A stretch of 64,000 bases of DNA from Flavobacteriaceae bacterium. Lineage in GTDB: Bacteria; Bacteroidota; Bacteroidia; Flavobacteriales; Flavobacteriaceae. Positions 2,670 to 26,306 of this stretch are shown here, in pieces. The stretch spans positions 124,001 through 188,000 of the forward strand of contig JAGYIX010000003.1 in the NCBI GenBank assembly GCA_018402205.1, read 5' to 3'. The notes below the pieces were generated by a model, which was not told the DNA's origin, searched no databases, and saw only the letters and a program-made list of their open reading frames with translations. Position numbers and translations under genes: made by a program. The first letter of the stretch is position 1. Each line of letters starts with the position of its first letter.

Positions 2670-4076
2670 ATGGTGCATAAAGTTAAAACCTTTGTTAAGG
2701 TAGATCTCGATTTACGATCAAGCCTTATGTCGTTAACCCTAACGAAGGGTTTTGGAGCTAAGTGTTCAGGTATGCCTCAACATATGCTTCGCGACCAATT
2801 TGATCGCTTGAGGGTTTTATTGCATCAGCGAAAACAACAGTTGAAAGGGATGAGATATGTCTTTCAAAGCCAAATTACCGCATCGGCTAAACACCATCAA
2901 ACATCAGAAATGGCAATAGCTGCTCTGCTAATAGCCTCTTGTGCAAAAGAAGCGGTGAATCACATAGAACAGACATATTTTGTAGGCTCATTTGATTTAC
3001 AAGGAAGAGCAATACCTTTAGATTACCCTCATGAATATTATGTCGCGGCACTGAGTGTGGGTTGCGAATATTTTGTTCTCCCACTAGAAAATATTAAGGA
3101 TCTTCCTGTCGAAATAGCGCCTAAATCTATAGGTATTCAATCAATAGATGAGCTAATTAATTACGTGTTAAGGTGCTCATATTCTTCGGTTTACAAAGAA
3201 TCCGAATGTATAAATACCACACATGAAAGTGTGTTTTATTACGATCAACCCCATGCTTCACGCGCATTAGAACTTTCGATTGTTGGCCGTCATCATTTAT
3301 TGCTATTCGGTGAACCAGGAATCGGCAAGTCAACATTGATTGATCATTATGCTAAAACGCTTCCGCTTTTAACTAGGGAGCAAAAGTTGAGTTTATGGCC
3401 CATTCAGGTAAAGCGTATGAAACGATTGTCGTATCAACTACCAGTAGAGCACATGAAGGTAAATACCTCTATAGCTGAGCTCTATGGAGGAGGGGTGAAG
3501 CCTTATCCGGGTTACATATCTCTAGCGCACCATGGAATTTTAGTGGCAGATGAAATTGATCAATATTCGCGATCTGTATTAGAGGCTCTAAAGCCTTCAT
3601 TAGAATGGAAAGAGGTGCTATTAGAAAGAAATAACTACTCCATTTCCTATCCTTCCGAGTTTACCTTAATAGGAAGTTGCAATACCGATCTTGAAAATAC
3701 CCACAATGGTCTTTTCTCTGACTCTTTTATAGATCGTATAGACCTCATGGTTAAACTGCAAAAGCCCGACATTGGTCAGAAACCAAAACCCTTCAATTAC
3801 ACTCAAATTTCTCAACGCCTCGAACAAGCGTTACTTTATAAAACATCTATTACCTCTAGTTTTGGGGGCGCTCAACCGCTAGATTGTTTGCATAGAATAC
3901 CCATCACGAAAGAAGGAATGAAAATGGTGCAGCAACTCAAAAGCAGAGATAAAACCTCCGTTCGGCGCATTAACCGTTGGCTGTCTACGGCTCTTTCACT
4001 GCTCTATATAGATCAGCTAAGCAGTTTAAATGAAGGAATACTTTCTGAAGCTTTGAGTTTTAGAAAATGGAATTAA
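2670..4076 (+). CDS. Diverged YifB/ComM-like (Mg-chelatase type) AAA+ ATPase
   Basis: The family (YifB/ComM) has a Lon-like N-terminal domain, a Mg-chelatase-type AAA+ core and a C-terminal lid; ComM is a helicase that helps branch migration in natural transformation. Here the AAA+ core is clear: Walker A GEPGIGKST (about 220), YGGGVKPYPGYISLAHHG, Walker B ILVADEID, and FIDRIDL. The N-terminal domain is recognisable only by its end, VGSFDLQGRAIPLDYP and VLPLENIKDL. The usual NLAPADL block and the NPCPCG cysteine motif are replaced. The ORF track begins at TTG 2661; I prefer ATG 2670, which gives the family-like start MVHKVKTFVKV. The stop overlaps that of recG by four bases, tail to tail. Family placement is good, but the precise role is uncertain because of the divergence. 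Confidence 0.75.
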   Translation: MVHKVKTFVKVDLDLRSSLMSLTLTKGFGAKCSGMPQHMLRDQFDRLRVLLHQRKQQLKGMRYVFQSQITASAKHHQTSEMAIAALLIASCAKEAVNHIEQTYFVGSFDLQGRAIPLDYPHEYYVAALSVGCEYFVLPLENIKDLPVEIAPKSIGIQSIDELINYVLRCSYSSVYKESECINTTHESVFYYDQPHASRALELSIVGRHHLLLFGEPGIGKSTLIDHYAKTLPLLTREQKLSLWPIQVKRMKRLSYQLPVEHMKVNTSIAELYGGGVKPYPGYISLAHHGILVADEIDQYSRSVLEALKPSLEWKEVLLERNNYSISYPSEFTLIGSCNTDLENTHNGLFSDSFIDRIDLMVKLQKPDIGQKPKPFNYTQISQRLEQALLYKTSITSSFGGAQPLDCLHRIPITKEGMKMVQQLKSRDKTSVRRINRWLSTALSLLYIDQLSSLNEGILSEALSFRKWN

Positions 4077-6184
4077 CTGATATAACTCCATAGAATTTTA
4101 CCCTTGAGCATCATGTGCATAGGCTTTAGCATACAATCGTGAATACTATTTTTTAAATCAGGGTCGTTTTCTAATATTTGCTGCACTTGAGAGCGAACGG
4201 TAAAAAGCAGTTCACCATCTTCAATGAGATCTGCAAACTTCAGTTGAAGACTGCCACTCTGCTGAGTTCCCATAATATCTCCTGGCCCCCTTAAACGCAA
4301 ATCAATTTCAGAAAGCTCAAATCCACTGCTGTGCTTTACCATACTAGTCATGCGCACCATTGCGTCGTCAGAAAGTTGCTTTTTGGTCATCAGTAAACAA
4401 TAGGATTGATTAGTTCCACGCCCCACTCTTCCTCTAAGCTGATGCAGTTGAGCTAATCCAAACCTTTCGGCACTTTCAATAACCATTACCGTGGCATTTG
4501 GCACATTTACACCTACCTCAATAACCGTAGTGGCTACCATAATCTGAGTAACACCCCTTTCGAATTGACGCATTTCATAGTTCTTGGCTTCAGCGCTCAT
4601 TTGGCCATGAAGAATAGAAATTGCGTATTGCGGAGCTGGAAATTCGCGACTTATACTCTCGTATCCGTCCATTAAGTCTTTATAATCTAAAGCTTCGGAT
4701 TCTTTAATGAGCGGGTACACTACATAAATCTGACGTCCTAATGCAATCTGTTCCTTTAGAAAAGAGAAGATCCTTAGTCGAGCACCATCGTTTCTATGCG
4801 TAGTGATAATTGGTGTTCTGCCAGGAGGCAACTCATCAATTACAGAAACATCTAGGTCACCATAGACACTCATCGCAAGGGTGCGAGGTATTGGTGTTGC
4901 GGTCATTACCAATATGTGAGGAGGTATGTGGGCTTTTCGCCAAAGCTTAGAACGCTGAGCTACACCAAAACGGTGTTGCTCATCTATGATCGCAAGTCCG
5001 AGGTCGCAAAACACCACTTGTTCTTCAAAAATAGCATGTGTTCCTATCAACAGATGTAGAGCTCCACTCAAGAGTGCCTGATGTATTTCTTTTCGATCTT
5101 TTTTTGAAGTAGACCCGGTTAAAAGCTCCACTTTAATTCCTAAAGGAACTAATTGGCTACTCAAATCTTCAAAGTGTTGTTGGGCTAGAATTTCAGTTGG
5201 TGCAACTAAACAAGCTTGAGACTTGTTACCAATGGCTATTAAGCATGAAAGTAGAGCCACCATGGTCTTTCCCGATCCCACATCTCCCTGAAGTAATCGA
5301 TTCATTTGGAGACCGGATCCTATATCATTGCGAATTTCGCGTAAAACTCTTTTTTGAGCACTAGTGAGTTCGAAGGGCAATGCAGTTTGGTAGTACTTTA
5401 GAAATAATTCGCCAACGATTTCAAACTTTCTACCCTTTATGGACTGTTTTCGATGTTGCTTTTTGATAAGCAATCCAAGCTGCATATAAAAAAGCTCTTC
5501 GAACTTAAGTCTGTCTAACGCCGATTGGGTCTGCTCTAGGGTTTCGGGACGATGAATATGCCTAAGTGCCAGGGTCTTTGAAGTATAGTTATGTGCTTTT
5601 AATATATACTCAGGAAGTGTTTCGGCTAAGGCAAAATCTTTAGCCTCTACAATAGATTGTAAAATAGTGCGAAATAAGCGCTGAGAAATTCCCACCTTCT
5701 GAAGTTTTTCAGGAATGGGGTAGATGGGCTCAATATCTCCTTTAAATATTTCGGTTGGCAGCTCACTGATTGGAGAAAGTTCAGGGTGTACTATAGAAAA
5801 GCGATCATGAAAGCGATTGACCTTTCCAAATACCCTGACACGCTGATTCTCTCTTAACTGTTTTTCTATGTACTGATATCCTTTAAACCAAACAAGTTCA
5901 ATTTGGTCGGTATTATCAACGAGATCGGCGGTTAATCTATAGCCCTTTGATTGCGGAATAAGACGAATATTGGATAGAATCCCTGCAGTTTGCACTACTG
6001 TGTTTTCAAGCTTTATGGCCGAAATAGGACTAAGGGATCTTTTGTCAATGTAGCGGGAGGGGGTGAAGAGTAATAGGTCGTAGATGGAAGATATATTCAA
6101 TTCGCTCCTAATCATTGCAGCACGCTTTGGCCCTAAACCTTTAATCGTCGAAATAGGAAACTCTAAGAACGAAGAAGTGCGCAT
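4073..6184 (-). CDS. recG: ATP-dependent DNA helicase RecG
   Basis: RecG is a double-strand DNA translocase that reverses stalled forks and moves branched junctions. The protein has the N-terminal wedge/OB-fold domain (about 1-240). The helicase core follows, with Walker A GDVGSGKT, DEQHRFG (DExH box), MTATPIPRTL, and motifs V and VI as TTVIEVGVNVPNA and QLRGRVGRG. The C-terminal extension is complete. The track start at 6190 is GTG; ATG at 6184 gives MRTSSFLEFPISTIKGLGPKRA and fits better. A TAAGTTTG -7 element ends just before it, so the transcript would have almost no leader. The gene is divergent from the patatin gene. Confidence 0.96.
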   Translation of the reverse strand: MRTSSFLEFPISTIKGLGPKRAAMIRSELNISSIYDLLLFTPSRYIDKRSLSPISAIKLENTVVQTAGILSNIRLIPQSKGYRLTADLVDNTDQIELVWFKGYQYIEKQLRENQRVRVFGKVNRFHDRFSIVHPELSPISELPTEIFKGDIEPIYPIPEKLQKVGISQRLFRTILQSIVEAKDFALAETLPEYILKAHNYTSKTLALRHIHRPETLEQTQSALDRLKFEELFYMQLGLLIKKQHRKQSIKGRKFEIVGELFLKYYQTALPFELTSAQKRVLREIRNDIGSGLQMNRLLQGDVGSGKTMVALLSCLIAIGNKSQACLVAPTEILAQQHFEDLSSQLVPLGIKVELLTGSTSKKDRKEIHQALLSGALHLLIGTHAIFEEQVVFCDLGLAIIDEQHRFGVAQRSKLWRKAHIPPHILVMTATPIPRTLAMSVYGDLDVSVIDELPPGRTPIITTHRNDGARLRIFSFLKEQIALGRQIYVVYPLIKESEALDYKDLMDGYESISREFPAPQYAISILHGQMSAEAKNYEMRQFERGVTQIMVATTVIEVGVNVPNATVMVIESAERFGLAQLHQLRGRVGRGTNQSYCLLMTKKQLSDDAMVRMTSMVKHSSGFELSEIDLRLRGPGDIMGTQQSGSLQLKFADLIEDGELLFTVRSQVQQILENDPDLKNSIHDCMLKPMHMMLKGKILWSYIS

Positions 6185-17450: not shown

Positions 17451-20249
17451 TTAGAATAGGGAGCGTGTGAACAATCTACTTAGGGTTTCAAACTGTAGAG
17501 TTAGAACAAAGCGGATCTTGCTAGAATAGTCTGCATCAAAGGTTTCAAATCCATTATGACTGTGAACGGGAAAATAAATCTCCAGGTAGTCAGGCACTAA
17601 GTTTAATCTAAAACCTGATCCATATAAGTACTGTGCCGCTTGGTCTTGATTCTTGATCAGGCCCAGTTCTGTATATATCTCAATGAAACGCCATAAATTA
17701 ATGGCAGCGTTGGTAGAAAGGATAGCCCGGTTTGAAAGTCCCTGATCTACTTTGGCTACAAACCCGCCCTCGGCACGGATCAATTGTTGGGCAGAAAAAC
17801 CTTCAGTTTCAGAGCGCCCGATAAGGCTATAATCATAGAGGTAGTCGTTTGGCCTACCAATAGAAAAACTAAAGAAATCATTAGGGTTGGTATTTCTTAA
17901 AAATAAACCTCCAAAGAACCTCAAACTGATTTGCGTATTGTTATCAAAAAGTCTTCTATACTCTGCAGAAGAAGTTACTTTTATAAAGGATTCAGAGAAC
18001 TGCAAGTCAGCCAGCAAGCTTTTAAAGTTAAAGAGGCTTTGTTTTACTTTTTGATAGCGAAAATTGAGGACTACATAATCTGGGTTCTCTAGGGTAAGCA
18101 TGCCTTGAGCCTCTCGATCAAGCGATCTTGAAACTGCTCTTACTCTTGCAAAAAAGGATTGATTGGTCCGAGAAGTTATGCCCTCAACATTTTGGTTCAA
18201 TCTTAGGTACGGGGTAACTGTAGTGTATCGTGAGTTTATATCAAAATGCTGAGTCAATCCAAAAATTCCTGCGGTTAAGCGACTGCGATTTTCATCATTT
18301 AACCAGTGGTTTGAGGCGATATTAAAGGCTCCTATAAGCGATTTTTCTTTACTGGAATAAAAAGGGGAAAATTGATATTCAATAGGTTTAGTAACTAGAG
18401 ACTCGTTGGTAATTTGTGCACCAAAAGAAACCCCGTCGTATATATTAAAAAGTGTCTGTGGCGTAACATAAAGCTGAGCGTATCTCAAGTCGTCAAGATC
18501 AGTAAACGGAAGTATCTTAATAGGGCTTTTGAACAAACTGCTTCGCGGGTTGTACCTATTATTTGAGCTATTAAATTCGGGAGTTTCTAAATAGGGATTT
18601 ACAATGTATCGCGCTTTAGAATTAGAATCAAAGCTCACCCAAGTTTCATGGGAAGAATTATTGACCCATTGATGTGCCACTTCTTTAGAGCTGACAAATT
18701 GAGAAATTTTAACAGGCATTGGGTAAATACCGGTATAACTAACAAGTAACGAATCTACTTGATTAGAGCGCTTAAAATCTTTAATTCTAAAATCAGTGCG
18801 TTCGCGAGAAGTGATCAAGCGATCAGACACTATGGGAGCGTTGGTGCCAGGAGGTAAAAACCATTTTAGGTCAAAACCTGATACGCCAGATCTCAAGTAG
18901 GATGATTTTTGAAAGTCTTGAATAGCTTTTAAGTTGTCTGAAGCATTACTCGGATTAAAGCTCATGCGAAACAACTGAGAAGCCTTAATGGGGTTGGCAA
19001 TGCTGTAATTGTAATTCAAAAGCTTAGTCGAGGGCGTAAGAAGGGGTTGATCAAGATTCTGGTTATCAATAAATCTACCCAACCACTTGAAATGCTCATT
19101 AACAGTGATTTCTCCTAGACGATAACGATTAAAGGGCCAGATATCACCGAATTTCCCTATCAATTTTAGGTTTTCGTATCTAAGGGCTATATAATTCTCT
19201 AGTTGATACTGAACAAATCCATCGAGATAAAAGTGTTCTCTTTGCATGTTACTATCAAAGCCTAGTAACAACTGTTTGCGCATAAGGGTTTTCAACACCC
19301 TTAACTCCTGCACAAACTCATCAGGATACGGAGATAAAATGCTCGGAAAGTCAGTCACTAATTTAATGGGGCTTTCATTGTATTCGCTATAAGTAAGAAC
19401 CAGATTACTGGTATCGAGCATAGGAGATACTTGATTGGTAAATGCTATTAATCTCTCTAAGGTCTGAATGGGGTCAGCTAGATTTTTAGCCATTTTAGAA
19501 TCTAGGTGAACCGACCATTTTGGAGTTGTGTAATGAAGTAAACTGCTATCGTTATGATCGATAACGAAAATAGGGGGGGTGGCTGTTATTCCTGAAAAAT
19601 CAAAGTAGGAATTAGACTCTAGGTCGCTATGAATAAAGTGATTGTCGCCACGATCAAATGAAATACTATAATGCACCAAACCAGTGTGTTGATTGCCATG
19701 GTTGTTATTATGATATATTTCGTGTTTTGCTCCCTCAAGCGGAATGGGAAGAATAAAACTGTTCTTTAACCACAACGCTTCGTTTTGATCTATTCCATAT
19801 CCATTGAATTTAGTAGACGGAAGTTTGAGCGTATACGTAAGGTTTAAGGTTATAGAATCGCTTTTTACACGCTGAGGAAGAGCCACTTCAATAACATCGT
19901 AATTTATACGTCTGTAATCAAGAGTTTCTGAGTCAAGTGCAATGATTAAGTCATTAGTAACGCCTCTATCTTCCTCTTTAGCTAAATGAAAACTGCGATC
20001 AAAGCGTTGTTGAAAAGAAATGCCTATTGGGCTATTCTTAGACGAAAAAGAGTGATTCCAGTCGTATAAATAGAGAGTGCGAGATTTGGCGAAATCATTT
20101 TTATTAAAAGTAAGTTTGCTTTTAACAGAAAGACTGCTGTTGGCATGATTCCAATAAAGGTGAGCGCTTATTTTAGACGGCGCGTTTTGGGAGAATAAAA
20201 GCGTAGTACTAAGAGAAAAAACAACGTAAACGAAAAGCCTAAAGTGCAT
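17451..20249 (-). CDS. Secreted gluzincin-like (M1-like) protein with a possible outer-membrane barrel, probably not an active peptidase
   Basis: The protein has a signal peptide (MHFRLFVYVVFSLSTTLLFSQ). The N-terminal 250 residues are beta-rich, like the M1 aminopeptidase N-domain. A middle region resembles the M1/gluzincin core in its second helix (FYLDGFVQYQLENYIALRY, then LIGKFGDIWPFNRYRLGEI), but I find no HExxH zinc motif where it should lie (ELRVLKTLMRKQLL). The last 350 residues are alternating aromatic beta strands ending in VLTLQFETLSRLF, as in outer-membrane barrels. The gene starts one base inside the end of the LOG gene, so it is in the uvrA-LOG operon. Family is inferred from pattern memory and function is unknown. 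Confidence 0.6.
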   Translation of the reverse strand: MHFRLFVYVVFSLSTTLLFSQNAPSKISAHLYWNHANSSLSVKSKLTFNKNDFAKSRTLYLYDWNHSFSSKNSPIGISFQQRFDRSFHLAKEEDRGVTNDLIIALDSETLDYRRINYDVIEVALPQRVKSDSITLNLTYTLKLPSTKFNGYGIDQNEALWLKNSFILPIPLEGAKHEIYHNNNHGNQHTGLVHYSISFDRGDNHFIHSDLESNSYFDFSGITATPPIFVIDHNDSSLLHYTTPKWSVHLDSKMAKNLADPIQTLERLIAFTNQVSPMLDTSNLVLTYSEYNESPIKLVTDFPSILSPYPDEFVQELRVLKTLMRKQLLLGFDSNMQREHFYLDGFVQYQLENYIALRYENLKLIGKFGDIWPFNRYRLGEITVNEHFKWLGRFIDNQNLDQPLLTPSTKLLNYNYSIANPIKASQLFRMSFNPSNASDNLKAIQDFQKSSYLRSGVSGFDLKWFLPPGTNAPIVSDRLITSRERTDFRIKDFKRSNQVDSLLVSYTGIYPMPVKISQFVSSKEVAHQWVNNSSHETWVSFDSNSKARYIVNPYLETPEFNSSNNRYNPRSSLFKSPIKILPFTDLDDLRYAQLYVTPQTLFNIYDGVSFGAQITNESLVTKPIEYQFSPFYSSKEKSLIGAFNIASNHWLNDENRSRLTAGIFGLTQHFDINSRYTTVTPYLRLNQNVEGITSRTNQSFFARVRAVSRSLDREAQGMLTLENPDYVVLNFRYQKVKQSLFNFKSLLADLQFSESFIKVTSSAEYRRLFDNNTQISLRFFGGLFLRNTNPNDFFSFSIGRPNDYLYDYSLIGRSETEGFSAQQLIRAEGGFVAKVDQGLSNRAILSTNAAINLWRFIEIYTELGLIKNQDQAAQYLYGSGFRLNLVPDYLEIYFPVHSHNGFETFDADYSSKIRFVLTLQFETLSRLFTRSLF

Positions 20250-20932
20250 TAGAAGTTTGGTCTTAAATCTCGCCCTTTATAGAATGCCAAAACAATAGAA
20301 ACTACCTCTTCTGCAGTGTCAACTACTTTAAATAAATCGAGATCTTCTTTAGAAATCGTTTTTTCTCTGACTAGTGTTTCTTTAATCCAGTCTATAAGTC
20401 CACCCCAAAACTTAGTTCCGACCAAAATAATAGGAAAGCCTTTTATTTTATGTGTTTGAATCAAAGTTAACGCCTCAAATAACTCGTCTAAAGTTCCGAA
20501 ACCACCCGGCATCACCACAAAGCCCTGGGCATATTTCACAAACATGACTTTGCGAACAAAAAAATAATCAAAGGAAAGACTTTTATCTGCGTCAATGAAT
20601 TCGTTGGGATACTGCTCAAAAGGAAGTTTAATATTTAAACCTACCGATATGCCTTTTGCTTCTTGCGCCCCCTTGTTAGCAGCTCTCATTACTCCGGGCC
20701 CACCACCCGTTATAATTCCAAATCCTTGCAAAGAGAGCTTATTCGCAATTTCAACAGAAAGATCAAAAGTCGATTGGTCTTCTCTTGTTCGTGCAGAGCC
20801 GAAAATAGATACACATGGCCCTATCTTTGCCATTCTATCATATCCTTCTACAAATTCTCCCATAATCTTGAAGAGGGCCCAGGAATCGTTAGACTTAATG
20901 TCGTTCCAAGTTTTTGCTGAATGCGATATCAT
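20249..20932 (-). CDS. LOG-family (TIGR00730-type) Rossmann-fold protein
   Basis: The protein carries the two LOG signatures: GGGPGVMRAANKGA (about 80) and PGGFGTLDELFE (about 140). LOG proteins are nucleotide 5'-monophosphate phosphoribohydrolases, first known from plant cytokinin activation and once misnamed lysine decarboxylases. The likely bacterial role is hydrolysis of nucleoside monophosphates, possibly in nucleotide salvage. It overlaps the uvrA stop by the four bases ATGA, so it is translationally coupled to uvrA. The length of 227 residues is normal for this bacterial subfamily. Confidence 0.92.
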   Translation of the reverse strand: MISHSAKTWNDIKSNDSWALFKIMGEFVEGYDRMAKIGPCVSIFGSARTREDQSTFDLSVEIANKLSLQGFGIITGGGPGVMRAANKGAQEAKGISVGLNIKLPFEQYPNEFIDADKSLSFDYFFVRKVMFVKYAQGFVVMPGGFGTLDELFEALTLIQTHKIKGFPIILVGTKFWGGLIDWIKETLVREKTISKEDLDLFKVVDTAEEVVSIVLAFYKGRDLRPNF

Positions 20933-23766
20933 GATACTTCAAGCGATTTAAACGAAACTAATTCATTTTTTAGGAACGCGGCAGTCAAACCCTCAGAAGA
21001 TGCTGAAATTTGTTCAGGTGTTCCTTTGGCTACAATACATCCTCCTGCATAACCTCCTTCTGGTCCTATATCTATGATGTAATCGGCTTGCCTAATTACA
21101 TCGAGATTGTGTTCGATAACAACCACTGTATTTCCTTTGTCTACAAGCTTATTTAAGACATCTAATAAGATGCGAATATCTTCAAAGTGTAAGCCTGTAG
21201 TGGGCTCATCTAAAATATATATAGTGTTTCCGGTATCTCTTTTTGCAAGTTCGGTAGCGAGCTTTACCCGCTGCGCTTCACCTCCTGATAAGGTGGTTGA
21301 CGATTGCCCTAGAGTTATATATCCAAGACCTACTAAATCTAAGGTTTTTAGAATGCGATGAATTTTTGGAATAGCGTCAAAAAAAAGACTTGCCTCTTCA
21401 ATAGTCATTTTCAATACATCGGAAATAGTTTTCCCTTTATATCTAATTTCAAGTGTCTCGCGATTAAAGCGCTTACCTCTGCAGGTTTCACAGTCTACCA
21501 AAACATCGGGCAAAAAATTCATTTCAATGACTTTTTGACCACCACCACCGCATGTTTCACACCTACCTCCAGCTACATTGAAACTAAAACGCCCTGCCTT
21601 ATACCCTCGAATAACTGCTTCAGTTGTTTTTGCAAACAATGCCCTTATCTCTGAAAAAACACCAGTGTAGGTTGCCGGGTTAGAGCGAGGGGTTCTTCCG
21701 ATGGGAGATTGATTCACGTCAATAACTTTGTCGCAATAGTTTATTCCTTTTACGCTCTTATAGGGCAATGGCTTCTGCACCCCATTAAAGTATTCTGCAT
21801 TTAGGATAGGGTATAGAGTTTCATTGATCAAAGAAGATTTTCCGCTACCCGACACCCCTGTAATTAGAGTTAGGGTGCCCAATGGAATTTTAAGATGGAC
21901 TTCTTTTAGGTTATTGCCAGAGCATCCAAGTACTTCAATATACTTCTGAGTTCCCTTTCGTCTTTTCAATGGGGTAGGAATGCTTTTTTTGTATTGCAAG
22001 TATTCTGAGGTTAAAGTGTTTTGATTTTTCATCAAATCTGGACTTCCTTCGAAAACAATTTGTCCGCCATGTCTTCCAGCACCTGGACCAATATCAATAA
22101 CGTGATCAGCACACTGTATCATATCGCGATCATGTTCTACCACAATTACCGAGTTGCCAATATCTCTTAGCTCTTCTAAAGCTTTAATAAGGCGCATGTT
22201 ATCTCGCTGATGTAGTCCTATACTGGGTTCGTCTAAAATATAGAGTACACCCATCAATTGAGATCCAATCTGCGTAGCCAAACGAATGCGTTGTGCTTCA
22301 CCACCAGACAACGAGCGTGCAGTGCGATTTAAGGTTAAATAGTTGAGTCCTACATTATCTAAGAATGCCAGACGAGAGCGAATTTCTTTAACCACTTCAC
22401 TGGCGATTCTAGCTTTAGTTGGCTCTAATCGCTCTTCAATTGCATCAAAAAATTGCAAGAGTTCGGCTACAGAACAATTTACTAAAGAGGAGAGGGTTTG
22501 CTCGTCTATCTTAAAGAATTTTGCTTCAGGTTTAAGCCTTGAGCCGTTGCAGCTATGACAAATTTTATCCTCAAGAAAGTCTGCCGCCCATCTTTTGATG
22601 GTGGCCGAGCCAGACTCATTATACTGATAAAGGATGAATTTCTCTATGCCGTCGTAATCAATCGCGTATTCTCGAGAGACGCCGAGAGATTTAGAAGGGA
22701 TAACTACGCGCTGTTTTAGTCCAGTTAGAATAGCGTTTCGGGCTTCCTCTGAAAGAGATTTAATTGGGCTGTCAAGGGTGAAATCAAAAAGATATCCGAT
22801 ATGCTCTATTTGTGTGAAGGCCCAATTTTTCTTGTATAAACCAAGCGGTGCTATTCCTCCTTTTCGAATAGTTAACGATTCATCTACAAATATTTTTCGC
22901 AGATCTAACTCCTTTAGTTGTCCAAGACCCTTGCACTCAGGACACATGCCTTTTGGAGAATTAAAAGAAAAGCTATTGGGCTCAGGTAGGTCTAGGGAGA
23001 CTCCAGATTCAGGACACATTAAAGCAGAACTATAGTAGTGTATTTCTCCTTCAGCTGTTTCTACCATCAGCACTGAATTTCCGCGTTTTAAGGCGAGCTC
23101 GACACTTTGCCGCAATCGCTTATTATCTTGACTAGGAGAAACAGTTAGCCTATCAATGACAATCTCTATATCGTGTATTTTATAGCGATCAAGTTTTAAT
23201 CCTGGCTCAATAGAACGAATTTGTCCGTCTACCCTAACTCTTAAAAATCCTTGTTTTTGAACAGTTTCGAAAAGCTCTCTGTAGTGTCCCTTTCTAGACC
23301 TAATGATGGGAGCCAACAGCGTAATAGTTTGCCCGCTAAATTGTTCACTCAATAACTGAATAATCTCTTCATTGGAATAGCTCACCATTTGCTTGCCAGT
23401 TACCGGTGAGTAGGCCTCAGATGCTCTTGCGTAGAGAAGACGCAAAAAATCATAGATTTCTGTTATAGTTCCGACCGTAGAGCGCGGAGATCTCGAAGTT
23501 GTTTTCTGTTCGATAGCAATAACCGGAGAAAGCCCTTCGATAGAGTCAACATCAGGTCTCTCTAAATTGCCTAAAAATTGACGGGCGTAGGCAGAGAATG
23601 TTTCTATATAGCGCCTTTGACCTTCTGCATAAATAGTGTCAAAGGCAAGAGAAGATTTACCACTACCTGATAATCCAGTAATAACCACTAATTTCTCGCG
23701 TGGAATCTCCAAAGAAACCCCTTTTAAATTGTGGGTTCTGGCATTATTAATCACAATTTTCGACAC
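20929..23766 (-). CDS. uvrA: Excinuclease ABC subunit A
   Basis: UvrA is the damage-sensing ATPase of nucleotide excision repair. Both ABC halves are complete: Walker A GLSGSGKSSL (about 31-40) and GVSGSGKSSL (about 640), with signatures LSGGEAQRIRLATQ and LSGGEAQRVKLATE, and Walker B ILDEPSIGLHQRDN and ILDEPTTGLHFEDI. The zinc modules are CPESG/CPECKGLG and CETCGGGG...CETCRGKRF. Length is 945 residues, normal. The start is GTG 23766, giving MSKIVINNARTHNLKGV; the GTG follows a TATTTTTG promoter element by about 18 bases. It is first in an operon with the LOG gene and the gluzincin-like gene, and is divergent from the S24 regulator. Confidence 0.98.
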   Translation of the reverse strand: MSKIVINNARTHNLKGVSLEIPREKLVVITGLSGSGKSSLAFDTIYAEGQRRYIETFSAYARQFLGNLERPDVDSIEGLSPVIAIEQKTTSRSPRSTVGTITEIYDFLRLLYARASEAYSPVTGKQMVSYSNEEIIQLLSEQFSGQTITLLAPIIRSRKGHYRELFETVQKQGFLRVRVDGQIRSIEPGLKLDRYKIHDIEIVIDRLTVSPSQDNKRLRQSVELALKRGNSVLMVETAEGEIHYYSSALMCPESGVSLDLPEPNSFSFNSPKGMCPECKGLGQLKELDLRKIFVDESLTIRKGGIAPLGLYKKNWAFTQIEHIGYLFDFTLDSPIKSLSEEARNAILTGLKQRVVIPSKSLGVSREYAIDYDGIEKFILYQYNESGSATIKRWAADFLEDKICHSCNGSRLKPEAKFFKIDEQTLSSLVNCSVAELLQFFDAIEERLEPTKARIASEVVKEIRSRLAFLDNVGLNYLTLNRTARSLSGGEAQRIRLATQIGSQLMGVLYILDEPSIGLHQRDNMRLIKALEELRDIGNSVIVVEHDRDMIQCADHVIDIGPGAGRHGGQIVFEGSPDLMKNQNTLTSEYLQYKKSIPTPLKRRKGTQKYIEVLGCSGNNLKEVHLKIPLGTLTLITGVSGSGKSSLINETLYPILNAEYFNGVQKPLPYKSVKGINYCDKVIDVNQSPIGRTPRSNPATYTGVFSEIRALFAKTTEAVIRGYKAGRFSFNVAGGRCETCGGGGQKVIEMNFLPDVLVDCETCRGKRFNRETLEIRYKGKTISDVLKMTIEEASLFFDAIPKIHRILKTLDLVGLGYITLGQSSTTLSGGEAQRVKLATELAKRDTGNTIYILDEPTTGLHFEDIRILLDVLNKLVDKGNTVVVIEHNLDVIRQADYIIDIGPEGGYAGGCIVAKGTPEQISASSEGLTAAFLKNELVSFKSLEVS

Positions 23767-23783
23767 TGTACCCGATTAAAATT

Positions 23784-23791
23784 CAAAAATA
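23784..23791 (-). promoter_or_regulatory. Putative -7 element of the uvrA promoter (TATTTTTG)
   Basis: On the minus strand TATTTTTG matches TAnnTTTG. It ends 18 bases before the uvrA GTG. A TTG lies about 24 bases upstream as a possible -33 element, and operator O1 (23805-23815) lies in the spacer between them. A repressor bound there would block this promoter. Confidence 0.6.
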
Positions 23792-23804
23792 CGCCATATA
23801 CATT

Positions 23805-23815
23805 GGAATAATTCC
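23805..23815. promoter_or_regulatory. Palindromic site O1 (GGAATAATTCC), candidate operator
   Basis: This is a perfect 11-bp inverted repeat, GGAAT-A-ATTCC. A near copy, O2, lies 21 bp away centre to centre, that is two helical turns. O1 lies within the predicted uvrA promoter spacer. Binding by the divergent S24 regulator is inferred from position and symmetry only. Confidence 0.6.
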
Positions 23816-23825
23816 CAATTGATTA

Positions 23826-23836
23826 GGAATTAATCC
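23826..23836. promoter_or_regulatory. Palindromic site O2 (GGAATTAATCC), candidate operator
   Basis: This matches O1 at nine of 11 positions and is also roughly dyad-symmetric (GGA...TCC). It lies between a TTG at 23819 and the TACTTTTA element that may drive the S24 regulator gene, so it could mediate autorepression. Confidence 0.55.
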
Positions 23837-23837
23837 T

Positions 23838-23845
23838 TACTTTTA
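23838..23845 (+). promoter_or_regulatory. Possible -7 element for the S24 regulator gene (TACTTTTA)
   Basis: TACTTTTA differs from TAnnTTTG at one position. It ends four bases before the ATG at 23850, which would give a nearly leaderless transcript. A TTG lies 16 bases upstream. Consensus match is imperfect. Confidence 0.35.
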
Positions 23846-23849
23846 ACCC

Positions 23850-24620
23850 ATGAGTAAATTTAATACCGCGCAACGTTTTGCTTTGCTTCGCAAAGAATTA
23901 GGTTTTACTCAAACTGAGTTTGGAGCCTATTTAGGTTTGTCTGGATCTAGTGCAGACATAGAGCGCGGCAAGACCAAAGTACCAGGCTTTGTGGTAGCTA
24001 AGTTGTTCGAAGAACACCAAATTAATCCTTCATGGCTTTTCGAATCTAGTGAACAGATGCGTTTAGTTAACGAATCGCTCTCGTTCGTTCCAAAAGTAAT
24101 TACGGTTAATTCAGAGAACAAAGAAAATGTATTACTAGTTGAAACTAAAGCGGCAGCAGGCTATCCGCAAAATATCTTAGATAGAAGTTGGTACGAAAAA
24201 CTCCCTGCATTTGACCTGCCGCTAAAAGAGTTTAGAAATGCCTCTTATCGCGGCTTTCAAGTCGAGGGTGAAAGTATGCTTCCGTCACTAAACCCTGGCG
24301 ACTGGGTGTTAGCTAGAGCCGTAGAATCTATTCATTCTTTGCGTTCATCAAAAATTTATGTGGTAGTTCTCGAAGACAGCGTTATGGTAAAAAAGATAGA
24401 GGTGAAACCAAATAGCAACCGACTATCTCTGATATCGGTAAATCCAAATTATGAATCTTACGATATACACGCTTTTCAAATTCAAGAATTATGGGAGGTC
24501 AGCAGTAAGATAACCTTTGTTATCGAACAAGACCAAAGCCTACAATTACTCAATGATCTAAAAGATTCTATGCGTGAATTAAAAGACCGCCTTTCTTCTA
24601 ATAAATTAAAGCAAGCTTAA
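23850..24620 (+). CDS. XRE-family transcriptional repressor with S24 (LexA/CI-type) peptidase domain
   Basis: The N-terminal helix-turn-helix (about 5-60, LLRKELGFTQTEFGAYLGLSGSS) binds DNA. The C-terminal S24 domain has the catalytic Ser142 in VEGESM, and Lys181 in VMVKK (39 residues on; LexA has 37, lambda CI 43). An Ala-Gly pair (A103-G104 in KAAAGYP) lies 39 residues before Ser142, close to the spacing in CI (38) and LexA (35), so damage-induced self-cleavage is plausible. A short Glu/Lys-rich tail follows. The gene is divergent from uvrA and the shared 83-base region holds two palindromes, so I infer control of itself and the uvrA operon. No bona fide LexA was seen in the window. Confidence 0.88.
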   Translation: MSKFNTAQRFALLRKELGFTQTEFGAYLGLSGSSADIERGKTKVPGFVVAKLFEEHQINPSWLFESSEQMRLVNESLSFVPKVITVNSENKENVLLVETKAAAGYPQNILDRSWYEKLPAFDLPLKEFRNASYRGFQVEGESMLPSLNPGDWVLARAVESIHSLRSSKIYVVVLEDSVMVKKIEVKPNSNRLSLISVNPNYESYDIHAFQIQELWEVSSKITFVIEQDQSLQLLNDLKDSMRELKDRLSSNKLKQA

Positions 24621-24626
24621 ACCGAT

Positions 24627-26306
24627 CTAAAACCCAGATGCGGCTTCATCACCTCTAGAATCAGCTCCGGCTTCTAGGCCTTTAGTTGGGTGTACTTTAA
24701 TGGCGTTTACCTTTCCTATAATTCGGTTCGTTTGCTCTGAAATAGTATGGCCTTTTTCTTTCAATCGATCTACCAGATATTCCTCATATCGATTGGGTTC
24801 GAGTATAAGTCGATCGGGCATCCATTGGTGATGAAAGCGCGGAGCATCTACTGATTCTTGCATGGGTTGATCGTAATAAGCTGCGCGCATAAATGTTTGG
24901 GCCACAGCCGTTATAATGGTAGATCCTCCAGGGGTTCCTAGCACCATGAATAGTTCACCTTCTTTTTCTACAATTGTAGGAGTCATACTGCTTAACATTC
25001 TCTTTCTAGGAGCAATCTCATTAGCGCTAGATCCGACCAATCCGAACATATTTGGCACTCCGGGCTTTGCGCTGAAGTCGTCCATTTCGTTGTTGTAGAA
25101 AAACCCTAATTCTTCGTGGTAAAGTTTAGACCCGTATCCTCCATTTAGGGTGGTGGTTACTGAAACCGCGTTACCAAAAGAATCGATAATAGAATAGTGT
25201 GTGGTTTCTTCCGATTCTAAACCGTAAAACTCTCCGTGACTGATTTCTTCTGAAGGGGTAGCTGTCTCGGGGTCAAATGATTCCATACGAGACTTTAAGT
25301 AGGTTGTAGCGGTAATTTTGTCCTCTGGAATAGCAACAAAGTCTGGGTCTCCTAGAAAGTGATTTCTGTCGGCATAAGCTCTTCTGAACGTTTCTGTAAG
25401 TAGATGTATGTATTCCTCGCTGTCTAGAGTAAGATCGTCCGTTACAAAAGGTTCTAACATGCCAAAAATTTGCTTCATAGTTAAACCTCCGCTGCTGGGC
25501 GGAGCCATTGAAATAAGATCAAAGTTTTTGAATGAGAATAGGATAGGGTCTCTAAATACAGCGCGATAGGCCTTTAAGTCTTCTAGTGTAATAACCCCGC
25601 CATTACGTTGAATAAAAGAAGTTATTTTTTCTGCCATTTTGCCTTCGTAAAAACCTGCTCTTCCCTTATCTCGTATCAATTCTAGTGTTTTCGCAAGTTC
25701 GATGTGTTTAATGGTATCGCCGGCTGAGACTCCTGAAAACTTATGGAGTACCCGCTGATTAACGAGCGTAAAAAGAGAGTCGTAATAAGCTAATCGCCTA
25801 GATTGGTTTGTGGTAACCACAACCCCCTTTCTTGCCAAGTCTATAGCCGGCTGAATGAGTCTTTCAAAAGGCAAGGAGGCTAGTGAATCGTATACGGCAA
25901 ATATTCCGGCTACTGTACCTGGAATGCCTACGGCATTGGCTCCGAGAGTGCTTTTATCTGTAATTACACTTCCCTCAGCATCCAGAAAGAAATCAGATTT
26001 TGCCGCCATGGGGGCCATTTCACGATAATCTAGGCTACCTGCTGATCCGTCTGCTTTTCTGAAAACCATGAATCCTCCGCCCGAAATGTTGCCAGCGAAT
26101 GGGTAGGCTACTGCTAAAGCTAATTCAGTGGCAATCATAGCGTCAAAAGCGTTACCGCCTTCTTTTAGAATCTGCACACCTATTTCAGAGGCTTCTATAC
26201 GTGAGCTAACCAATGCTGCCTTTTTGAAATACACATATTCAGAGGGTGACTTTTGTTGACAACTAGATAAGAGAAGTACCCACAGAGCACAAAGTAAAAC
26301 ACGCAT
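24627..26306 (-). CDS. ggt: Gamma-glutamyltransferase (lipoprotein form)
   Basis: This Ntn-hydrolase cleaves gamma-glutamyl bonds of glutathione and similar peptides, after self-cleavage into two subunits. The nucleophile is Thr368 in EETTHYSIID, which would become the N-terminus of the small subunit. The region around NGGYGSKL, NNEMDDFSAKPG and MLSSMTPTIV is intact, and the end has DSRGDEAASGF. The leader ends in a lipobox, LSSC (Cys16), so the enzyme should be anchored on the periplasmic face or outer membrane. Length 559 is normal. It is divergent from glmM; its end is convergent with the S24 regulator gene with a six-base gap. Confidence 0.95.
   Translation of the reverse strand: MRVLLCALWVLLLSSCQQKSPSEYVYFKKAALVSSRIEASEIGVQILKEGGNAFDAMIATELALAVAYPFAGNISGGGFMVFRKADGSAGSLDYREMAPMAAKSDFFLDAEGSVITDKSTLGANAVGIPGTVAGIFAVYDSLASLPFERLIQPAIDLARKGVVVTTNQSRRLAYYDSLFTLVNQRVLHKFSGVSAGDTIKHIELAKTLELIRDKGRAGFYEGKMAEKITSFIQRNGGVITLEDLKAYRAVFRDPILFSFKNFDLISMAPPSSGGLTMKQIFGMLEPFVTDDLTLDSEEYIHLLTETFRRAYADRNHFLGDPDFVAIPEDKITATTYLKSRMESFDPETATPSEEISHGEFYGLESEETTHYSIIDSFGNAVSVTTTLNGGYGSKLYHEELGFFYNNEMDDFSAKPGVPNMFGLVGSSANEIAPRKRMLSSMTPTIVEKEGELFMVLGTPGGSTIITAVAQTFMRAAYYDQPMQESVDAPRFHHQWMPDRLILEPNRYEEYLVDRLKEKGHTISEQTNRIIGKVNAIKVHPTKGLEAGADSRGDEAASGF

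Follow-up and report, generated by a model that had tools for sequence, protein, structure and literature searches.

In the window, the 64,000-nucleotide stretch of DNA that we analyzed, uvrA (excinuclease ABC subunit A; 20929..23766, minus strand; 1344.7 bits against a cut-off of 1147) is read from a GTG start codon and lies divergent from a regulator gene (23850..24620, plus strand) encoding a 256-aa protein with HTH_3 and Peptidase_S24 domains. The pair is flanked by a gamma-glutamyltransferase gene (24627-26306) and a LOG-family TIGR00730 gene (20249-20932), and the same flanking gene order is also present in genomes G009 and G004. The region between uvrA and the regulator contains two short palindromes, GGAATAATTCC at 23805-23815 (site 1) and GGAATTAATCC at 23826-23836 (site 2), whose centers (23810 and 23831) are 21 bp apart, exactly as the sequence-only reading of this DNA had described them. 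GGAATAATTCC is a perfect dyad, and GGAATTAATCC, with 5-bp arms, is an imperfect one (4/5 pairs). Scored as GGA-N5-TCC, both are perfect.

Single sites of this type are at chance level. The window holds two matches to GGAWWWWWTCC versus 0.82 expected, at least two were found in 23 of 100 shuffles, and the whole genome (1.68 Mb) has 27 matches versus 31 for the reversed control pattern. The signal is the pairing. We defined a twin as two GGAWWWWWTCC-type sites lying 5 to 16 bp from each other and used the reversed pattern as the control. The window's genome has two twin pairs versus approximately 0.005 per genome expected by chance, and reversed-pattern twins occurred in none of 39 related genomes. 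The pattern GGAATNNATTCC was found in one place only, on another contig.

Next to the regulator, the sites are strongly conserved. The twin arrangement is present in 17 of the 39 related genomes, a set identical to that of the genomes encoding a close regulator orthologue (at least 40% identity). The 17 are not independent observations, because 11 of them belong to one genus, and a Fisher value for this co-occurrence is therefore no true probability, although six further genera agree. Whatever the neighboring gene, at least two GGA-N5-TCC sites lie upstream of the start codon in all close regulator orthologues (19/19), whereas the motif was absent from the stretches examined upstream of S24 proteins with less than about 35% identity. 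In the eight genomes in which uvrA and the regulator directly diverge, the window's genome among them, all 12 GGA/TCC columns of the two sites are invariant, and identity is 88% within the operators versus 60% across the remaining intergenic sequence. The comparison with related genomes that the sequence-only reading had proposed thus bore it out, with cores invariant in eight genomes and twins that track the regulator among 39 relatives.

The window's genome encodes no S24 protein besides the regulator. In a Pfam scan, Peptidase_S24 scored 46.4 bits (cut-off, 23.3) and HTH_3 scored 21.0 bits (E = 3.4e-4), slightly below its cut-off of 23.0; the LexA winged-helix domain (PF01726, LexA_DNA_bind) was absent, and no NCBIfam LexA family matched. 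Residues A103-G104, S142, and K181 are invariant in 13 aligned orthologues, and the same columns are invariant in 19. Such conservation of an Ala-Gly site and a Ser/Lys pair is as expected of a self-cleaving repressor. Foldseek searches with a structural model of moderate quality (mean pLDDT, 62.8) returned domains of LexA, lambda CI, P22 c2, and the 434 repressor, and the C-terminal part matched LexA/CI C-terminal domains, which from a model of this quality lends weak support. A PDB sequence search gave weak matches to the 434 repressor only.

A noncanonical type of LexA that combines these two domains was described in Bacteroidetes by Sanchez-Osuna et al. (PMC8565304). For one group, found mainly in Flavobacteriaceae, they showed binding to a GGA-N5-TCC motif by gel shift; changing either dyad or the spacer length abolished binding. 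Among the targets predicted for this group are dinB/dnaE, splB, umuDC, and a two-gene repair operon of UDG type, COG1573-COG4277. Mitomycin C induced selected genes. The main text of that paper does not mention uvrA. By the family descriptions, the COG1573-COG4277 operon probably corresponds to the TIGR03916/TIGR03915 gene pair discussed below. Like the S. agarivorans protein WP_075324850.1 and its relatives (PMC8565304), our regulator has a CI-type HTH and an S24 domain with the conserved Ala-Gly, Ser, and Lys. As in the GGA-N5-TCC group, it comes from Flavobacteriaceae without a canonical LexA, has several sites per promoter, and carries them upstream of its own gene as well as at dinB, which is paired with a DNA polymerase III alpha gene (PMC8565304). 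It agrees with the group in all testable features, and we therefore assign it to the Bacteroidetes noncanonical LexA proteins of the GGA-N5-TCC type. Judged by its sequence, the regulator is a LexA already described for Bacteroidetes, and the kind of system is known. The twin palindromes are almost certainly its operators.

Flavobacterial promoters carry a -7 box, TAnnTTTG, which occupies positions -12 to -5 (PMC9723704). On this basis, TACTTTTA (23838..23845, plus strand) is a putative -7-like box of the regulator gene, and TATTTTTG (23784..23791, minus strand), which matches the consensus, is a putative -7 box of uvrA. TACTTTTA lies 4 bp before the ATG, which predicts that transcription of the regulator starts at the ATG itself (23850) and yields a leaderless lexA mRNA. 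Other genomes of the clade appear to keep a similar distance from box to ATG. For uvrA, a transcript from TATTTTTG is predicted to start near 23779. Relative to these predicted starts, site 2 spans about -24 to -14 of the regulator and abuts TACTTTTA, and site 1 spans about -36 to -26 of uvrA (-45 to -35 relative to the regulator ATG). Site 2 would therefore be placed to block the regulator promoter, and site 1 to block the -33 region of the uvrA promoter. The usual spacer between a TTG and the -7 box is about 19 bp. Neither promoter has a TTG at this spacing (spacers of 16 and 24), and the -33 elements of both are therefore uncertain. The promoter placement originally proposed for the palindromes roughly holds: site 1 lies upstream in the uvrA promoter and site 2 abuts the regulator -7 box.

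Elsewhere in the genome, the twins recur at one more promoter. Throughout the genus (11/11 genomes), they occur at two promoters only, that of the regulator and that of dinB. At a distance of 3 bp after dinB, the window's genome has an alpha-type DNA polymerase III gene, dnaE (dinB, 1617-2831, and dnaE, 2835-5825, of locus L101). The sequence-only reading had pointed to other repair genes as places for further sites, and the dinB twins, present in 11/11 genus genomes, match this idea. Among exact matches to GGAWWWWWTCC or WGGAWNNNWTCCW in the window's genome, only the window pair and the dinB pair are clearly placed at promoters. The remaining matches lie inside open reading frames, except for one doubtful place (C2:564092) in a stretch without a confident open reading frame, and we rejected them as further targets. 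This search used exact motif matches, so that weak sites could remain, and since genome completeness is about 90%, some targets may lie in the absent part. Near the end of one contig, we also observed two 347-aa open reading frames, about 3.5 kb apart, with the same N-terminal sequence as far as examined (L070 and L071; G000:C5, about 299854 and 303357). They may reflect a recent duplication or an assembly effect, and they possibly encode an alkane monooxygenase.

recA was rejected as a target in the window's genome, as no GGA-N5-TCC lies upstream of it. In the branch formed by G003, G009, and G010 (L132, L136, and L135), a single extended palindrome, TTTGGAAATAGTCCAAA, is located about 44 bp upstream of the start of the recA match. 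Within the genus, TTTGGAAATAGTCCAAA upstream of recA is restricted to this branch. Its absence from recA in the window's genome means that the regulon differs within the genus.

The comparison of neighboring genes suggests how uvrA came to face the operators. In Croceivirga (L051), Aquimarina (L052), G011, G021, and G022, the gene facing the regulator across the GGA-N5-TCC sites is not uvrA; a TIGR03916 radical-SAM gene and a TIGR03915 gene occupy this position. In G011 and G021, uvrA comes next on the same strand, beyond these two genes. In G028, TIGR03915 alone is left before uvrA, and in G001, G005, and G006, only a shortened, diverged TIGR03915 relative is left (46 bits in G001, versus a cut-off of 112). 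This 207-aa relative lies between the operators and uvrA (L143:1238-1861, L144:1205-1828, and L145:3329-3952), its start codon directly adjoining the first operator, and could be a degenerating vestige of the repair operon that was lost. In the eight genomes that include the window's, no gene intervenes, and uvrA lies directly opposite the operators. In no genome of the genus does a TIGR03916 match exceed the cut-off. The regulator and UvrA trees both unite the eight genomes (support, 100/99), with G001, G005, and G006 as the sister group.

We found no GGA-N5-TCC close to uvrA in any of 11 genomes without the direct arrangement (G001, G005, G006, G011, G017, G020, G021, G022, G028, G032, and G047); the nearest match among them, 149 bp upstream of uvrA in G028, contains G/C and is at chance level. 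We therefore regard the association of uvrA with the sites as derived and rejected uvrA as an old target. The opposite order of events, insertion of the operon between the regulator and uvrA, is unlikely because the operon adjoins the regulator in several other genera. These arrangements are most simply accounted for if uvrA was captured once, through gene loss, in the common ancestor of the eight genomes. In its full form, this account holds that loss of the intervening TIGR03916 and TIGR03915 operon in one clade brought uvrA under the operators and reduced the SOS regulon to a minimal set of about two promoters (lexA/uvrA and dinB-dnaE); we lean toward it.

Taken together, the following circuit seems very likely: the regulator represses itself, uvrA, and dinB-dnaE, DNA damage relieves the repression, and uvrA joined by gene loss. 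In an undamaged cell, regulator dimers would sit on both sites. With site 2 occupied at the regulator -7 box and site 1 upstream in the uvrA promoter, both the regulator and uvrA would be repressed, and the dinB-dnaE unit elsewhere would likewise be held down. Upon DNA damage, RecA filaments would trigger self-cleavage of the regulator at Ala103-Gly104 by Ser142/Lys181, leading to induction of the regulator, uvrA, and dinB-dnaE. The operators would first have served the TIGR03916 radical-SAM and TIGR03915 repair operon on the uvrA side; after its loss in the ancestor of the clade, uvrA would have come to adjoin the operators and entered the circuit. The sites, their conservation, their co-occurrence with the regulator, the dinB sites, the catalytic residues, and the stepwise gene loss are read directly from the genomes, and binding, repression, and damage induction by this regulator are expected by analogy with the published group (PMC8565304). 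That uvrA transcription responds to the damage circuit is suggested by position and conservation. The claim of an SOS-like circuit without canonical LexA is supported, given that the twins track the regulator, recur at dinB, and equal the published motif (PMC8565304). The claim of an operator pair for two divergent genes is also supported, with invariant cores in eight genomes and a published motif, its uvrA side being argued from position.

We weighed three other explanations. A phage origin, which would make the regulator a CI repressor of the prophage type and the palindromes phage operators with no link to DNA repair, would fit the CI-like HTH and S24 architecture and the paired operators typical of phage switches. 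Yet the neighbors are nonphage genes (uvrA, the LOG-family gene, gamma-glutamyltransferase, and others) in a synteny kept within the genus, and the same twins stand at dinB in 11/11 genomes; we consider this origin highly improbable and reject it on neighborhood and synteny. Even less credible is that AT-rich inverted repeats arose here by chance or that the palindromes bind an unrelated factor. Single GGAWWWWWTCC sites are indeed no commoner than chance, but the twins are conserved, are absent from the controls, and follow the regulator across genomes, and the twin-site controls together with this conservation rule out a chance origin.

The remaining alternative concerns uvrA alone: the operators may serve only autoregulation, with uvrA a constitutive bystander that became a neighbor through gene loss. 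That every orthologue of the regulator has upstream sites, whichever gene lies opposite, agrees with this, as do the apparent -7 box that uvrA keeps for itself, with site 1 upstream of it, and the lack of a close site at uvrA in relatives where the genes are not adjacent. Against it, site 1 overlies the uvrA -33 region and equals site 2 in conservation (8/8 genomes), and the earlier divergent neighbor, the TIGR03916/TIGR03915 operon, is probably among the targets predicted for this regulator group (PMC8565304). We judge autoregulation alone to be unlikely, and control of uvrA by the twin operators to be probable from the sequence evidence.

uvrA is a classical LexA target in E. coli. The system described here resembles the canonical LexA SOS response of E. 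coli in having a self-cleaving S24 repressor, autoregulation, and an error-prone polymerase and uvrA as likely targets; it differs in its HTH_3 domain in place of the LexA winged helix and in its operator. HdiR of Streptococcaceae and UmuDAb of Moraxellaceae are likewise non-LexA S24 repressors, and they control minimal gene sets, mostly error-prone polymerases (PMC8565304), but they have separate origins and motifs and are not found in Bacteroidota. Compared with the rest of the GGA-N5-TCC group, the predicted regulon here is small (lexA/uvrA and dinB-dnaE only), the genus has lost the radical-SAM operon that ancestrally faced the regulator, and uvrA is divergent from lexA, with operators common to both. 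The new part appears to be this lineage-specific wiring of uvrA to the lexA operators.

These results extend a recently recognized, experimentally supported SOS system to uncultured flavobacteria with small genomes. They also offer a step-by-step view of rewiring, in which an operator pair stayed in place, the adjoining genes were lost, and the next gene inherited the operators. If this is true, the regulon was rewired by gene loss and not by the evolution of new sites, and uvrA would be damage inducible in the eight-genome clade and not in its sister group.
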